Source: Sulfurovum sp.
GTDB taxonomy: Bacteria; Campylobacterota; Campylobacteria; Campylobacterales; Sulfurovaceae
NCBI GenBank assembly: GCA_027062365.1
Contig: JAMOTK010000017.1
Span: 1 to 53,355, forward strand
Direction of reading: 5' to 3'
DNA length: 53,355 nt
Made by a program: the position numbers and the translations under genes. Positions 32,568 through 39,055 of the stretch are shown here, piece by piece (the first letter of the stretch is position 1; each line of letters begins with the position of its first letter). Under the pieces are notes generated by a model that was given only the letters and a program-made list of their open reading frames with translations, was not told the DNA's origin and searched no databases.

Positions 32568-33308
32568 TTAGCCTTTTTGTGTCTCTCCTGAGAATCCAAT
32601 GATACCAGGGCGTAGGTTAGATACATGTTGGAAACCTAGACCTTTCATCGCATGTTGGACTTGAAAGCTTCTACTTCCTGAGTGACAGTATACGATGATA
32701 GCTTCATCTTTTTTACCTGCTAACTCTTCTTCTACTTTGTTATAAAACTGTGAGGTAGGTACAAGGGTATCTGTCCCTACAATATGACCCATTTGAAATT
32801 CCATAAACTCTCTAGTATCTACAAGTGTAAAGTGTATCATTCCTAGTTTTTTGGCTTCGATGAGTGCTTCTAATTCATCTCCATCTAATTGCTCTTCTTT
32901 GAGAAGGACTTCGGCTTGTTCTTTAGAGAGTCCTTTGGAGTGTGTATGCACCACTTCTTCTATCGTATCATGTTCATCTTGTGATGCTGCATACTCTGGA
33001 GTACAAAAGATACCACAGTGACAAAGACCATCTTCTGGTATCTCTTTTTCTATGGCAGGTTTACAAGGACATATACGGTTGTCTGCTGCTTTTTGCTCTT
33101 CTTTTGTTTCACCAATCACCATAAAACAAGGACAAAACTGTTTGCCGTAGATAAGCTTATTTCTAGCCAATCCCATGGTCACACCTTCGTTTACCTCTTC
33201 ATTAGGGTTTTGTACCCAACCAAATTGTTTATTGACTTTTTTTACAAAAGCGGATGTTTTTTCAAGCTGGGCTTGAAACTCGTCTGAATTCATATCTATT
33301 TGTTGCAC
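32568..33308 (-). CDS. Ferredoxin-thioredoxin reductase catalytic domain fused to rhodanese
   Basis: A 246-residue fusion. Residues 40-105 carry the FTR beta-subunit cysteines: C59-P-C61, C80-P-C82, C96-H-C98 and an additional C102, enough for a 4Fe-4S cluster and a redox-active disulfide. Residues 150-245 form a rhodanese domain (VDTREFMEFQMGHIVGT, YCHSGSRS with active Cys208). The fusion suggests iron-sulfur-mediated reduction coupled to sulfur transfer, attractive for a sulfur-oxidising bacterium, but no FTR alpha subunit or ferredoxin is nearby. Its start shares one base with the stop of the lipoprotein gene upstream. Confidence 0.87.
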   Translation of the reverse strand: MQQIDMNSDEFQAQLEKTSAFVKKVNKQFGWVQNPNEEVNEGVTMGLARNKLIYGKQFCPCFMVIGETKEEQKAADNRICPCKPAIEKEIPEDGLCHCGIFCTPEYAASQDEHDTIEEVVHTHSKGLSKEQAEVLLKEEQLDGDELEALIEAKKLGMIHFTLVDTREFMEFQMGHIVGTDTLVPTSQFYNKVEEELAGKKDEAIIVYCHSGSRSFQVQHAMKGLGFQHVSNLRPGIIGFSGETQKG

Positions 33309-33817
33309 TAGTTTTCCTTACTTATGTTACTGTCTGTATTTTGTGTGATACTATCAAACTCTTTTACAAAGTTTTTTATTTTTTTATCCCATGTTTTGAG
33401 AAGATTTTGTGTTTGATTCAAATCAATATGAATAGTTTCGCTATTGATGTCAATACTTGTCTCTATATCATGAGAGATTTTTTTCATTTGTACTTGCATT
33501 TGTTGACTAAGATTATTGAAAAACTTTTTGGTTTTATTGGTATCAATAACTATCGTACCATTCTCCATGTCAATACCTAATTGATTTAACTTAGTCATCG
33601 GCTTTTCTGAAAGTTTATTTTCAGATGCTTCTACACGTGCTTTTGCAAATATTACTGCATCTTCAGCTTTTTTGGCTTCAAATTCTGCTAAAACTTTGGC
33701 ACGTGTTTGGGCCACTATTTTTGCATCATGTTCTTTTTGCCTTTGAGCATCATGTTCTTTATCTTGACATCCTGTAAAGGCAAGAAGTAACATAAATGTG
33801 ATAAGTAAATATTTCAT
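33308..33817 (-). CDS. Lipoprotein with coiled-coil region
   Basis: A 169-residue protein with a lipoprotein signal peptide (MKYLLITFMLLLAFTGC; lipobox F-T-G-C with Cys17). The mature part is hydrophilic and helical, rich in charged heptads (EHDAQRQKEHDAKIVAQTRAKV and so on), so it is probably a coiled coil. It is translated just before the FTR-rhodanese gene on the same strand (1-base overlap). I do not recognise a family; function unknown. Confidence 0.75.
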   Translation of the reverse strand: MKYLLITFMLLLAFTGCQDKEHDAQRQKEHDAKIVAQTRAKVLAEFEAKKAEDAVIFAKARVEASENKLSEKPMTKLNQLGIDMENGTIVIDTNKTKKFFNNLSQQMQVQMKKISHDIETSIDINSETIHIDLNQTQNLLKTWDKKIKNFVKEFDSITQNTDSNISKEN

Positions 33818-33875: not shown

Positions 33876-33910
33876 AGGTAAAACTCCTATATCTTTAGAT
33901 ATATAGGAGT
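33876..33910 (-). terminator. Terminator after the small GKC-peptide gene
   Basis: The stem ACTCCTATAT / ATATAGGAGT (33883-33910) has an 8-base loop. On the minus strand it is followed by TTTTACC, giving a terminator about 44 bases after the stop of the 69-residue peptide gene. On the plus strand no T-run follows. Confidence 0.65.
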
Positions 33911-33953: not shown

Positions 33954-34163
33954 CTATTCACTTTTTGCTGGTGTTTCTTTTGTATCTTTTGTAGCAGTTT
34001 CGCATTTCCCAGCGTTACATTTTTTATCTGTAGCTTTAGAAGCATTACATTTTTTCTCAGTTTTTTTAGCATCTCCACATTTTCCTTCTCCACATTTATC
34101 TGCAGCAGTCGCAAGAGTAAGTGTAAGTGCGATAGCACCTAATAATGTAAGTAGTTTTTTCAT
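33954..34163 (-). CDS. Small exported Cys-rich peptide with GKC motifs (HvfA/bufferin-like)
   Basis: A 69-residue protein. Residues 1-21 are a signal peptide (MKKLLTLLGAIALTLTLATAA). The mature part, DKCGEGKCGDAKK..., contains six Cys in short repeats (KCGEGKCG, KKCNAS, KKCNAGKC) and is otherwise rich in Lys, Glu and Thr. The EGKCG motif is the hallmark of HvfA-type precursors (bufferins), whose Cys are modified by DUF692/HvfC enzymes to make copper-binding peptides. No such enzymes are in the window, so it could equally be an unmodified metal-binding peptide. The ribosome-binding site is AAGGAAA before the ATG. Confidence 0.7.
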   Translation of the reverse strand: MKKLLTLLGAIALTLTLATAADKCGEGKCGDAKKTEKKCNASKATDKKCNAGKCETATKDTKETPAKSE

Positions 34164-34249
34164 AGTTTATTTCCTTAATTGTATAAAGTATAAGCTTCAA
34201 ATGAAGCAAAGAATGTCAAGTAGTCTCTGTCTAGCAGTGTAACTATACT

Positions 34250-34293
34250 ATGAGGTTTGTGTACTCTATGTGTACTCAATACACAAATCTCAT
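34250..34293. repeat. Long inverted repeat between the two GKC-peptide genes
   Basis: The 14-base arms ATGAGGTTTGTGTA (34250-34263) and TACACAAATCTCAT (34280-34293) pair with one G-T wobble across a 16-base loop. The loop itself repeats TGTGTACT. No T-run follows on the minus strand, so it could be an operator or a processing hairpin rather than a terminator. A TAGTATAGT -10-like element of the 69-residue peptide gene lies right beside it. Confidence 0.5.
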
Positions 34294-34309
34294 CTAAATA
34301 AAAATATGT

Positions 34310-34489
34310 TTACTTACCTCCACATTTCCCTGTACTACATTTCCCTGCTTCACATTTCATAAAAGGTGCAAGTTTTTCTTGTGTGTATGTTTCTTTGCTA
34401 TCAAATGCCCCTTCGCTATAAAGAAGGTATGCCAAGAGTGATAAAAGTATTAAAAGAGTGACCAAAGTCCAAAGTAGAAATTTTTTCAT
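34310..34489 (-). CDS. Membrane-anchored small peptide with GKC motifs
   Basis: A 59-residue protein. Residues 4-23 form an N-terminal membrane helix (FLLWTLVTLLILLSLLAYLL) with no obvious cleavage site. The C-terminus is KCEAGKCSTGKCGGK with three Cys in GKC repeats, like the neighbouring 69-residue peptide. The ribosome-binding site is AAGGAAA, ten bases before the ATG, and a TATACT -10 box lies at about 34527 on the minus strand. The two peptides appear to form a small metal-related gene pair. Function unknown. Confidence 0.65.
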   Translation of the reverse strand: MKKFLLWTLVTLLILLSLLAYLLYSEGAFDSKETYTQEKLAPFMKCEAGKCSTGKCGGK

Positions 34490-34570: not shown

Positions 34571-34608
34571 GTGTAGTCTCATCCTCTTATGGTACACTTA
34601 GACTACAC
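34571..34608. repeat. Inverted repeat upstream of the GMC oxidoreductase operon
   Basis: GTGTAGTCT (34571-34579) and AGACTACAC (34600-34608) are perfect 9-base complements 20 bases apart, in the divergent promoter region between the GKC-peptide genes and the GMC operon. The spacing fits a dimeric regulator binding two DNA faces or a hairpin in the leader. Confidence 0.5.
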
Positions 34609-34654
34609 AAAGTATGACTATGATACGTTAAATCTAAGCCCAAGGATATGTAAG

Positions 34655-35161
34655 ATGAAAATAAAAAGAAGAGCATTTTTAGTATTAGGTTCTTTATTGG
34701 GGTTGTCTCCTTATCTCAATGCCCAAGTCATAAATGGCTTTCAAAAAGAGTTTAAAGAAGTAGAGAAGACCCTGTATGCTGTCCAAGACCACATGTTTCC
34801 TGAGGGTTGTCCTTTACCGTCTGCTCAGGCTATGTATATGACACAATTTTTATATGATACCATGCAACATCATAGTTTTGATAAAGATATAAAAGCCTTT
34901 GTGATAGAGGGGGCAAAAGAGTTACAAAAGAGAGAAAAAGGAAAATTTAACACTATGTCAAGCAAAGAAAAAGAAAAAGCCTTACGTGCGTATGAAGAGA
35001 CACGATATGGAAGTTCATGGTTATCACGTATTATGACACTCAGTATGGAGGGGATGTTTTCTGACCCTATTTATGGTTCTAATACCAAAGAAGCAGGGTG
35101 GAAAGCATTGGGTAGTTATGGCTCATTTCCTCGCCCAAAAACAAAGTATTTGGAGTCTTAG
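34655..35161 (+). CDS. Tat-exported gluconate 2-dehydrogenase subunit-3-like protein
   Basis: A 168-residue protein. The start is placed at ATG 34655 (ribosome-binding site AAGGA), giving a twin-arginine signal peptide MKIKRRAFLVLGSLLGLSPYLNAQ (K-R-R-A-F-L). The mature part, EVEKTLYAVQDHMFPEG...AMYMTQFLYDTM, is like the small subunit of gluconate 2-dehydrogenase-type GMC complexes. It ends where the GMC gene begins, so the two form an operon, and the Tat signal of this subunit may export the folded flavoprotein as a pair. The substrate is unknown. Confidence 0.8.
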   Translation: MKIKRRAFLVLGSLLGLSPYLNAQVINGFQKEFKEVEKTLYAVQDHMFPEGCPLPSAQAMYMTQFLYDTMQHHSFDKDIKAFVIEGAKELQKREKGKFNTMSSKEKEKALRAYEETRYGSSWLSRIMTLSMEGMFSDPIYGSNTKEAGWKALGSYGSFPRPKTKYLES

Positions 35162-36841
35162 ATGTATGATGTAGTGATTATAGGTTCAGGAGCTAGTGGT
35201 GGTGCTGTGGCATATACTTTGTGTAAAGCAGGGTACAAAGTCGCTGTATTAGAAAAAGGTCGTTTGATGCGACGTGAAGCATTTTCTAAAGATGAATTGG
35301 CATATTGTCGCAGAGACTTAGTCACGCCCAATCTCTTTGATGAGTATCATACCATAGAAGAAAAGGTTGAGGGTAAGTGGGTGGCTACCCCTACACATGA
35401 ATCAGGATGGAGCTTTTGGAATGGCAATATCGTGGGGGGGTCTTCTAACTTGATGTCAGGGATGTTTCATCGTTTACATCCTGATGACTTTCGGCTCAAA
35501 AGTAAGTACGGAGCGATAAAAGGAGCCAATATCGAAGATTGGCCTATCTCTTATGATGATTTGGAGCCGTATTATACTTTGGCAGAAGAGCTAGTAGGTA
35601 TATCAGGACATCATATACCCCATCGGTATGAACCTAAACGAAGTACCCCAAACTTTAGCCAACCTCCTACAAAAGAAAATGCCGTAGTGAAGCTTCTTGA
35701 TAAGAGTTGTGAAAATTTAGGATTTACCCCTTTGGTCACGCCTCGTGCTGTGCTGTCTAAAGATAGCAATGGACGCAAGGCTTGTTATTATTCCAATTTA
35801 TGTGGTAGCTATGGCTGTAGCTCAGGAGCAAAAGGTAGTGCAAGAGAATCACTTATCAACCCTGCTTTAGCCACAGGTAACTTGACCCTTCTTACGAACA
35901 GTCATGTCAAGAGACTACAGAGTGATAGCCAAGACAAAGTCCACGCAGCACTCGTAGTCGATACCATTACAGGCAAAGAAAGATATATCAAAGGCAAGAT
36001 TTTTGTGGTGGCGGCTCAATCGCATGAGAGTGCAAGACTACTCTTAAACTCTAGCAATCAATACCACCCTAAAGGACTGGGTAATAGTTCTGGAGAATTA
36101 GGTAAAAACCTTATTTTTTCAGGGGGAGGGGCAGGTCAAGGAGAATTACAAAAAGAGAATTTAAAGCAGATAAAGTTTGAAGACCTCATGACCACGGGGC
36201 TTTTTGTTAACCGTTCTATTTTAGATTGGTATTTTATTGACCATTGGTGGGATGGAAAGTTTAAAGGAGGTTCTGTAGAATTTATGTTTGAACACCAAAA
36301 CCTCATAAGTAGAGCCAGAAAAGACAATGAAGTAAAAGGCAAACTCGTATGGGGAAAAGCGTTAGGCGAACGTGTGGAAAAACGTTTTCAAGAGCAAAAA
36401 AGTATACGTTTTGAGATTTTTAATGATTGGCTTCCCAATGATGATTGTTTCGTGAGCTTAGACCCTACACATAAAGACAAATACGGGATGCCTGTGGGTA
36501 AACTACGTGTAGAGGGACATCCTCAAGATATAAAAGTAGGTAAATATATCGCAAAAAAATGTGAAAAGATATTGGTAGAAATGGGTGCAAAAGAAGTCTA
36601 TTCTAGTATTTCTTCGTCACCTTCTACCAATCTAGTGGCAGGAGGATGTCGTTTTGGAAATAATCCAAAACATTCTGTACTCAATAAGTATTGTCAATCA
36701 CATGATGTCAAAAATCTCTTTGTGGCAGATGCTAGTTTTATGCCTACAGGAGGTTCGGTAGCCTATACATGGACGATTTATGCCAATGCTTTTAGGGTAG
36801 CAGACCATATCATAGAGCAGTTAAATATCACAAAAATATGA
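35162..36841 (+). CDS. GMC-family FAD-dependent oxidoreductase
   Basis: A 559-residue GMC oxidoreductase of the gluconate/2-keto-gluconate dehydrogenase type. The FAD-binding start is VVIIGSGASGGAVAYTLCKAG, and the second motif is GGSSNLMSGMFHRLHPDDF. The C-terminal GMC domain has VAGGCRFGNNP, and NLFVADASFMPTGGSVAYTWTIYANAFRVADHI. It has no signal peptide of its own, consistent with export by the Tat partner encoded just before it. The usual cytochrome c subunit is missing from the window, so the electron acceptor is unknown. The sugar or alcohol substrate cannot be read from the sequence. Confidence 0.88.
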   Translation: MYDVVIIGSGASGGAVAYTLCKAGYKVAVLEKGRLMRREAFSKDELAYCRRDLVTPNLFDEYHTIEEKVEGKWVATPTHESGWSFWNGNIVGGSSNLMSGMFHRLHPDDFRLKSKYGAIKGANIEDWPISYDDLEPYYTLAEELVGISGHHIPHRYEPKRSTPNFSQPPTKENAVVKLLDKSCENLGFTPLVTPRAVLSKDSNGRKACYYSNLCGSYGCSSGAKGSARESLINPALATGNLTLLTNSHVKRLQSDSQDKVHAALVVDTITGKERYIKGKIFVVAAQSHESARLLLNSSNQYHPKGLGNSSGELGKNLIFSGGGAGQGELQKENLKQIKFEDLMTTGLFVNRSILDWYFIDHWWDGKFKGGSVEFMFEHQNLISRARKDNEVKGKLVWGKALGERVEKRFQEQKSIRFEIFNDWLPNDDCFVSLDPTHKDKYGMPVGKLRVEGHPQDIKVGKYIAKKCEKILVEMGAKEVYSSISSSPSTNLVAGGCRFGNNPKHSVLNKYCQSHDVKNLFVADASFMPTGGSVAYTWTIYANAFRVADHIIEQLNITKI

Positions 36842-36961: not shown

Positions 36962-39055
36962 ATGAAAAAATTTTATCAGTCACTGCTGGCATTGTCTCTC
37001 ATGGCAGTATTTTTAAACGCAGAGGCAACAAAATTACAAAAAAAGAGTGCTGTGGTTGAACATAGTATTCAATCAGGGGATACACTTTTAAGCTTAGCAC
37101 AACAGTACCACAGTACAGTGTTAGAGATTAAAGCCAAAAATCATTTAGAAGAAAATGAAATATTGAAACTTGAGCGTGTTTTAAAGATACCTACAAATAC
37201 CTATGTTCCAAAGAAAAAAAAGGTGATTACTTTGGCTAAAAATGCCAAAAGTAAACATTCTAATGCCAAACTTGTAGTCCATACGATAGGCGATGGAGAG
37301 ACACTTTTTACGGTAGCCAAAAAATACCATAGTACTTCAAAAGAGATTCAAAAAGAAAATGGTTTGGAAAAAGACCAAATGTTAAAGATTGGGCAAATGA
37401 TTGTAGTGCCTATTGATATTTATTTTCCTAACAAGAAAAAAGTGATGACATTGGCAAAAGATGCCAAAAGTAAACATTCTAATGCAAAGCTTGTGGTGCA
37501 TACCATAGGCGATGGAGAGACACTTTTTACTGTAGCCAAAAAATATCACAGTACTTCAAAAGAGATTCAAAAAGAAAATGGTTTGGAAAAAGACCAAATG
37601 CTCAATATTGGGCAAATGATTGTCGTGCCTATCAATACATACTTTCCTAAAAAAGACAAAGTCGCTACTGTTACTAAAAAGACCAAGAGTAAATACTCTA
37701 ATGCTAAACTTATCGCCCATACGATAGGGGAGGGAGAGACACTTTTTACTATTGCCAAAAAATACCATAGTACTTCAAAAGAGATTCAAAAAGAAAATGG
37801 TTTAGAAAAAGACCAAATGCTCAATATCGGACAAATGATTGTCGTGCCTATGGATACCTATTTCCCTACAAAAAAAGAAGTCATTACTTTAGCCAAAAAT
37901 GCAAAGAGTAAATATTCTAATGCTAAACTTGTCACGCATACAATAGAAGATGGGGAAACACTTTTTACTATTGCAAGAAAACACCATACAACTATGGATG
38001 AAGTAGCCAAAGAAAATAGTCTAAAAGAGGGAGAGGTTTTGAAACTAGGACGTGTACTCATCGTACCTACCAATACCTATTCACGTATCAATAAAAAGTC
38101 TCTTATCGTAAAAAAGAGTAGCAAATCCAATCCTAAAAAAATAAAATTAGTCAAACACTCTATTAAAGATGGGGAAACACTTTTTATTATTGCTAGAAAG
38201 CATCATACAACGATAGCTGAAATTCAAAAAGAAAATGCCTTAAAAAAAGGTGAAGTACTAAAACTAGGACGTATCCTTATCGTACCAAAAGATACCTATT
38301 CACCTAAAAAAATAGCAAGTATCAAAAAAGCTAAACAAAAACCTAAACTAAAGATAGTCAAACATAAGATTAAAGCTGGAGAGACACTGTTTACTATCGC
38401 ACGTAAGCACAAGACTACCATATCTGCTGTAAGAAAGAAAAATAATCTCAAACAAGGGGCTGTTTTAAAATTAGGTTATATATTAAAAGTCCCTAGCAAT
38501 ACGTATAAAGTACCCAAAATAAGAATTGCTAAAAAAACCCATACAAAAAGAAAAACCAATAATAAAATAACAAAAAGAAAAACAACAAAAAGAAAAGTAA
38601 CTTCACTGGCTAAAATAGATAAGATTATTGTGAAGAAGAACAATATAATCATACATAAAAGAAAAAATTCATACCGTTCAAGACAATCTAAAATTACATC
38701 TATCGCCAAGAAAAAGCTAGGACGAAGATATGTATGGGGTGCATCAGGTACTAAAAATACCTATGATTGTTCAAGTTTTACAAAATATGTATATCGTAAA
38801 AATGGGATAACCATACCACGTACTTCTATCAATCAATCTAAGTTTGGTAAACATATAAAAAGAAATAACCTTAAAAAAGGTGATTTAATTTTCTTTGATA
38901 CTTCTAAAAGACACAAAGGATATGTCAATCATGTTGGGATTTATCTAGGTAATGGAAGGTTTATTCATGCAAGTTCAGCCAAAAAGAAAGTAGTTATCTC
39001 TAACTTGTCAAGATTTTATGGTAAACGCTATAGGGGTGCAAGAAGACCTTCATAG
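36962..39055 (+). CDS. Exported peptidoglycan hydrolase: seven LysM repeats and NlpC/P60 domain
   Basis: A 697-residue exported protein. Signal peptide 1-20 is followed by seven LysM domains starting near residues 34, 107, 180, 253, 326, 399 and 468; the first six are exactly 73 residues apart. Repeats 2-4 are nearly identical in protein and DNA. A very basic linker (about 515-575, many K/R) precedes a C-terminal NlpC/P60 domain with catalytic Cys603 in YDCSSFTKYVY, His657 in NHVGIYLG and His669 in FIHASS. It probably cleaves peptide cross-links in the cell wall, for instance at division. The LysM repeats anchor it to peptidoglycan. Monocistronic. Confidence 0.93.
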   Translation: MKKFYQSLLALSLMAVFLNAEATKLQKKSAVVEHSIQSGDTLLSLAQQYHSTVLEIKAKNHLEENEILKLERVLKIPTNTYVPKKKKVITLAKNAKSKHSNAKLVVHTIGDGETLFTVAKKYHSTSKEIQKENGLEKDQMLKIGQMIVVPIDIYFPNKKKVMTLAKDAKSKHSNAKLVVHTIGDGETLFTVAKKYHSTSKEIQKENGLEKDQMLNIGQMIVVPINTYFPKKDKVATVTKKTKSKYSNAKLIAHTIGEGETLFTIAKKYHSTSKEIQKENGLEKDQMLNIGQMIVVPMDTYFPTKKEVITLAKNAKSKYSNAKLVTHTIEDGETLFTIARKHHTTMDEVAKENSLKEGEVLKLGRVLIVPTNTYSRINKKSLIVKKSSKSNPKKIKLVKHSIKDGETLFIIARKHHTTIAEIQKENALKKGEVLKLGRILIVPKDTYSPKKIASIKKAKQKPKLKIVKHKIKAGETLFTIARKHKTTISAVRKKNNLKQGAVLKLGYILKVPSNTYKVPKIRIAKKTHTKRKTNNKITKRKTTKRKVTSLAKIDKIIVKKNNIIIHKRKNSYRSRQSKITSIAKKKLGRRYVWGASGTKNTYDCSSFTKYVYRKNGITIPRTSINQSKFGKHIKRNNLKKGDLIFFDTSKRHKGYVNHVGIYLGNGRFIHASSAKKKVVISNLSRFYGKRYRGARRPS
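37223..37879 (+). repeat. Three tandem 219-bp repeats inside the LysM hydrolase gene
   Basis: The DNA encoding LysM repeats 2, 3 and 4 and their linkers repeats with a period of 219 bases. For example, the GCCAAAAGTAAACATTC word recurs at 37244 and 37463. The copies differ by scattered substitutions only, implying recent in-frame duplication, so repeat number may vary among strains. Confidence 0.8.

Follow-up and report, generated by a model that had tools for sequence, protein, structure and literature searches.

HvfA-like peptides of Sulfurovum are kept without MNIO enzymes and accompanied by a non-canonical GMC-family flavoprotein

Introduction

Two small adjacent genes on a Sulfurovum contig, here called pepA and pepB, encode peptides with GKC motifs, and the question that they raise is which partner such peptides have where the MNIO (DUF692/HvfB; PF05114) and HvfC (DUF2063) genes of the known systems are missing from the neighborhood. 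The first-pass annotation had pointed out this absence, and it is correct that neither gene lies near pepA and pepB. Related peptides were described in Haemophilus and Fontimonas as HvfABCX/oxazolin, fontiphorin and Buf_EGKCG peptides (PMC13419390, PMC13097082, PMC12452194). In a survey, EGKCG precursors without MNIO were found in 67 of 2583 genomes, and it was proposed that in these cases the modification is not needed or the function has been lost (PMC12452194).

Results

pepA and pepB are genuine genes

The window, by which we mean the whole stretch of 53,355 nucleotides analyzed, corresponds to contig 17 of a Sulfurovum genome of 2.3 Mb with a completeness of 99.8%. The earlier claims of two adjacent small GKC-peptide genes and of an HvfA-like motif were both borne out: the two open reading frames lie side by side on the minus strand, with DKCGEGKCG in pepA and a KCExGKC-type motif in pepB. 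The pepA gene (33954..34163, minus strand) encodes a 69-aa HvfA-like peptide with a Sec-type export signal and five Cys, in which DKCGEGKCG occurs once, in addition to KKC and KCNAGKC (the latter overlapping the NAGKCE stretch). The pepB gene (34310..34489, minus strand) encodes a 59-aa membrane-anchored peptide, in which a single N-terminal hydrophobic helix, with no obvious signal-peptidase site seen, is followed by MKCEAGKCSTGKCGGK with three Cys; its tail reads MKCEAGKCSTGKCGG. Signal, anchor and Tat assignments were made by eye from the sequence.

Of 80 related genomes, 28 gave matches to pepA and 24 to pepB, the weakest of them having the motif alone in common. The Cys residues are near-invariant in both alignments; PF..MKCExGKC is invariant in the 15 aligned pepB proteins and the third GKC nearly so. 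The pN/pS ratio was about 0.40 for either family, with synonymous change near saturation. At the DNA level, a GKCxxGKC coding pattern was present in 58 of the 78 Sulfurovum genomes with well over 100 matches, while the reversed pattern, used as a control, gave 2 matches in all 78. These results indicate that pepA and pepB are genuine genes under purifying selection.

Against the NCBIfam HvfA model NF050137 (cut-off 19.5 bits), pepA itself scored 12.8 bits, its orthologue in genome G007 21.6 bits, and GMC-linked peptides elsewhere 20.0-43.0 bits. No bufferin signature was detected in pepA or pepB with DUF2282 (Pfam) or the bufferin models (NCBIfam), and their five and three Cys differ in number from those of the 6/12-Cys bufferin group. 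A third kind of peptide, a GKC-repeat lipoprotein, frequently accompanies peptides of the pepA and pepB types in relatives. Therefore, these cells own soluble, helix-anchored and lipid-anchored GKC peptides.

MNIO and HvfC are absent from the genus

Modification in trans had been left as an option by the first-pass annotation. In the search for its enzymes, neither MNIO nor HvfC was found in the genome itself, nor in any of the 78 Sulfurovum genomes (0/78 for each). The identical PF05114 search detected MNIO over the cut-off in 25 of 397 Campylobacterota genomes, with E values of 1e-81 or better, so the negative result in Sulfurovum is meaningful. The MNIO genes of the phylum adjoin KCG-type peptides and often HvfX too, and clusters of the canonical hvfA-MNIO-HvfC-HvfX type are present in other Campylobacterota. 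Because MNIO and HvfC are both lacking throughout the genus, modification in trans is excluded within the limits set by a genome 99.8% complete; the other suggestion made at first, that of a distinct system, holds as a possibility.

HvfX is retained elsewhere in the genome

The sole HvfX (DoxX) of this genome, none being present in the window, is located on contig C29 (95.8 bits, cut-off 80), next to a truncated glutamate-synthase-like gene. In relatives, a DoxX gene lies beside pepA and scores 122 bits against the NCBIfam HvfX model (cut-off 80); the window locus lacks both this DoxX and the lipoprotein peptide that relatives carry there. HvfX was found over the cut-off in 59 of 78 genus genomes. 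It can be seen that HvfX and GKC peptides go missing together in the genus: 17 genomes were without HvfX, 20 without the GKC pattern and 14 without both (p 2e-8; Fisher p values overstate independence because genomes share descent, and are indicative only). At six loci (L195, L200, L202, L213, L215 and L216) a membrane-anchored FMN glutamate-synthase-domain protein (PF01645) adjoins HvfX, and such a neighbor occurs in MNIO genomes and MNIO-free genomes alike. This protein (family c28) was rejected as a core part, as it stands beside HvfX in only some loci.

The conserved unit is larger than the two peptide genes

Divergent from, and upstream of, pepB-pepA lie two plus-strand genes. The one nearer to the peptides encodes a Gluconate_2-dh3 family small subunit (34655..35161; PF13618, 34.8 bits) with a Tat-like KRRAFL signal; its start in the list of open reading frames, 34589, is probably too early, 34655 being the best. 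It is followed by a GMC-family flavoprotein (35162..36841; PF05199/PF00732), a homologue of 6a2u/7w2j. The nearest named relatives of this GMC locus are Sulfurovum genomes, and Gluconate_2-dh3 adjoins GMC in 78 of 80 loci. Beyond the pair, at 36962-39055, the window encodes a 697-aa protein that combines seven LysM repeats with an NlpC/P60 domain and contains long near-identical repeats.

On the other side, a terminator-like hairpin (33883..33910, minus strand) is found 3' of pepA. Downstream of it are, both on the minus strand, a lipoprotein without Cys repeats (33308..33817), conserved in Sulfurovum (cluster c2, 18 loci; 41 of the 80 named GMC loci), and a fusion of a ferredoxin:thioredoxin reductase (FTR) beta-like domain with rhodanese (32568..33308; PF02943 + PF00581), which Sulfurovum likewise keeps as a downstream neighbor of the peptides (18 loci). 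A role of the fusion in the peptide system is doubtful. Both the FTR-rhodanese protein and the coiled lipoprotein were discarded as core parts, since neither stands beside peptide/HvfX loci outside Sulfurovum.

In relatives the operon runs GKC lipoprotein(s), DoxX, pepA, lipoprotein and FTR/rhodanese, divergent from Gluconate_2-dh3 and GMC. In other genomes, pepB mostly sits at a separate locus, flanked by genes for a response regulator and an MBL-fold hydrolase. Only the window and G007 (loci L060/L290) have pepB inside the pepA operon, that is, one of the 80 named GMC loci besides the window. A functional pair of pepA and pepB was therefore rejected, pepB having a conserved locus of its own, and the earlier idea of an anchored partner as a new arrangement finds no support as a conserved two-peptide unit. 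The adjacency of pepA and pepB is a local rearrangement, and the conserved unit is larger, comprising GKC peptides, HvfX and the Gluconate_2-dh3 and GMC pair.

The GMC pair takes the place of MNIO and HvfC across the phylum

HvfX and MNIO were scored in 397 Campylobacterota genomes, and proteins at least 48% identical to the window GMC were counted as its orthologues. HvfX was over the cut-off in 59 genomes, of which 16 had MNIO and 43 had none. Of the 43 MNIO-free HvfX genomes, 41 had the GMC orthologue, compared with 4 of the 16 with MNIO. Similarly, among the 39 of 332 genomes with a KCGxGKCG coding pattern, GMC was found in 27 of 28 lacking MNIO versus 1 of 11 possessing it. Judged from gene coordinates, HvfX and GMC are less than 5 kb apart in 28 of 41 genomes, and their order varies, being divergent in Sulfurovum and genus g20 and co-directional in g16, g36, g50 and g64. 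This adjacency, kept through rearrangement, is a stronger argument than the p values. Genomes G125 and G337 have a minimal unit of peptide, Gluconate_2-dh3 and GMC without HvfX, and in G125 the peptide stop overlaps the start of the next gene. Within genus g64, one species is of the MNIO type and another of the GMC type. GMC orthologues without HvfX were also found (24 of 338 genomes), some of them with no adjoining GKC peptide. Taken together, the above results show that the Gluconate_2-dh3 and GMC pair takes the place of MNIO/HvfC across the phylum.

Some individual records deserve mention. The GMC genes of G128, G223, G290 and G415 have an in-frame stop or are split, which may reflect ongoing loss or sequencing error. 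Locus L341 (SAAU01000011.1), titled as an Alphaproteobacteria MAG, contains a Sulfurospirillum-like GMC locus and is probably mis-binned. At L366 and L367, peptides of MNIO-free genomes bear the NCBIfam name 'oxazolone/thioamide-modified RiPP metallophore', an annotation trap.

The GMC protein lacks the canonical catalytic residues

The FAD and C-terminal domains of the GMC protein (PF00732 and PF05199) are both over the cut-off, and the solved structures closest to it by sequence belong to FAD-glucose and fructose dehydrogenases (6a2u, 7w2j). In all compared orthologues, however, the catalytic segment HNTGGTTMG is replaced by LVAGGCRFG and YNPT by SV[AP]Y, so that a Leu stands for the His and a Val for the Asn, the two residues that would be catalytic by analogy with GMC enzymes in general. 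In contrast, five of five same-phylum paralogues (about 30% identical, Cj0415-like) keep both; these presumably resemble the gluconate dehydrogenase Cj0414/Cj0415 of Campylobacter. With both residues replaced, the window protein probably does not act as a standard dehydrogenase of sugars or alcohols. The orthologues, other than the g36 and g50 sequences, conserve the Cys of AGGCRFG, and of the four Cys in the Fe-S region the group retains three. No cytochrome c gene was found beside GMC in the window. An AlphaFold2 model built from 13 sequences had a mean pLDDT of 64, with the active-site region under 50.

An operator-like sequence is shared with an efflux operon

The sequence TGTGTAN5WGTGY is a direct repeat whose 11-base period is that of OmpR-type regulator sites. 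The 53 kb window has two matches to it, where 0.14 would be expected: TGTGTACTCTATGTGT (34258..34273, plus strand), 94 bp before pepA, and TGTGTAGTCTAAGTGT (34594..34609, minus strand), 45 bp before Gluconate_2-dh3 in the divergent region between it and pepB. In 18 Sulfurovum divergent regions, 33 half-sites were counted, compared with 2.5 in shuffles. In g16 genomes, the operator-like site was also found 43-100 bp before genes for HvfX and the peptides. In the window's own genome, a CusCBA-type operon opens with a TolC-like gene that has the site 53 bp upstream. Some MNIO-type hvfA genes are preceded by it with 0-1 mismatches, whereas most are without it. OmpR-type two-component genes adjoin some clusters of both the MNIO and the MNIO-free kinds. 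The shared site therefore suggests that both kinds of system are tied to one metal-type stress response, for which copper would be the likeliest signal.

The closest model for the RND adaptor of this CusCBA-type operon is CusB (101.5 bits, below the cut-off of that model); the adaptor bears an N-terminal MKCSDGKCG, and the last gene of the operon encodes a KCGAGKCG lipoprotein. The adaptor, a CusA/CzcA RND pump and this lipoprotein lie together at L365 (G000 contig 50, 188-4766) of the window's genome. Modules of the KCGxGKCG type were further seen fused to other proteins, N-terminally to ones labeled by eye as FixH-like, NosL-like and CusB-like and C-terminally to a membrane protein labeled as DUF4395-like (loci L047, L051, L052, L053, L055, L057, L094 and L095); the module looks like a mobile metal-binding tag.

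Discussion

It seems probable to us that pepA and pepB belong to a regulon for copper buffering by HvfA-like peptides that does without MNIO, with a non-canonical GMC protein replacing MNIO/HvfC as the dedicated partner. We infer the following course of events. A two-component system of the OmpR type would respond to an excess of copper (or silver) by turning on efflux pump, peptides and GMC pair alike. The Cys thiolates of the peptides would hold Cu(I), pepB at the outer face of the inner membrane and pepA in the periplasm, and may pass it on to the pump for efflux; a similar KC motif is present on the CusB-like subunit of this pump. The GMC protein would reach the periplasm together with its Tat-exported small subunit and serve there as redox partner of the peptides or of their metal.

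The GMC protein may modify the peptides, handle copper redox or be co-regulated and no more. In the last case, the pair would work in the periplasm as a dehydrogenase on a substrate of its own, and metal would be buffered by the free thiols of the peptides alone. Some GMC loci have no GKC peptides or HvfX, and the ~30% identical paralogues of the same phylum are similar to gluconate dehydrogenase (Cj0414/Cj0415), both of which are in line with this possibility. However, the mutual exclusion of GMC and MNIO, the adjacency retained despite changes of gene order, the coupled reading frames in G125 and the loss of both canonical catalytic residues speak more for a dedicated partner; co-regulation alone is thus a possibility of some substance, although not the one to be expected. 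A tentative and more speculative idea is that Gluconate_2-dh3 and the non-canonical GMC constitute a second enzyme by which EGKCG peptides mature, independently of MNIO. The Tat-exported GMC would then oxidize peptide Cys (or Lys-Cys) in the periplasm, with electrons passing to HvfX and the quinone pool. If true, this would be a flavin-dependent, post-export RiPP modification and a new maturation route.

The same architecture might instead answer to a stress other than copper, such as zinc, nickel, silver, mercury, sulfide or oxidative stress. Not all RND pumps of the CusA/CzcA family are copper pumps, protection from oxidative or sulfur stress is described for a DoxX homologue (PMC12452194), rhodanese and FTR are neighbors, and the operator-like site could answer to another signal. 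Nevertheless, the adaptor is nearest to CusB, if under the model cut-off, known EGKCG peptides bind copper (PMC13097082), and the KC motif is found on CusB-, NosL- and FixH-like proteins (NosL and FixH being labels by eye), which makes a different stress rather unlikely. That pepA and pepB are relics, precursors left idle after the loss of MNIO, corresponds to one of the two options raised before (PMC12452194) and agrees with the presence of MNIO in relatives elsewhere in the phylum; it seems very improbable in view of purifying selection, near-invariant Cys, several peptides per genome and conserved operators. Even less credit, practically none, can be given to an MNIO acting in trans: the HvfA-like motif and the HvfX of the genome would suit it, but MNIO and HvfC are absent from a 99.8% complete genome as well as from the 78 genomes of the genus.

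The phylum data thus speak against the 'not functional' option and add a consistent alternative partner. In Campylobacterota, the MNIO-free kind of EGKCG/HvfX system is the commoner one, selected and tied to another redox protein. No paper linking a GMC protein to HvfA-type peptides was found in the literature searched. With such MNIO-free systems, it becomes directly testable whether copper buffering needs Cys modification, what HvfX does apart from MNIO, and which reaction is carried out by a GMC protein without the catalytic pair.

Compared with known systems, the peptide locus has an operator-like sequence in common with the CusCBA-type Cu/Ag efflux operon, yet it is a separate locus, and the CusCBA-type locus is without GMC. 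The flavoprotein shares the GMC family and a Gluconate_2-dh3-type small subunit with FAD-dependent glucose, fructose and gluconate dehydrogenases (6a2u, 7w2j; Cj0415), from which its group differs by the lack of the catalytic His and Asn. Bufferins 1 and 2 (DUF2282; Buf_6/12Cys) are likewise Cys peptides that are exported and buffer copper, and they include lipoproteins, but they have another Cys pattern and fold and are made with MNIO/DUF2063. Closest are the HvfABCX/Buf_EGKCG systems, with a short Sec-exported (E)GKCG peptide, an HvfX (DoxX) partner and a metal-stress context; unlike them, Sulfurovum has lipidated and helix-anchored sister peptides and, instead of MNIO and HvfC, the GMC and Gluconate_2-dh3 pair.
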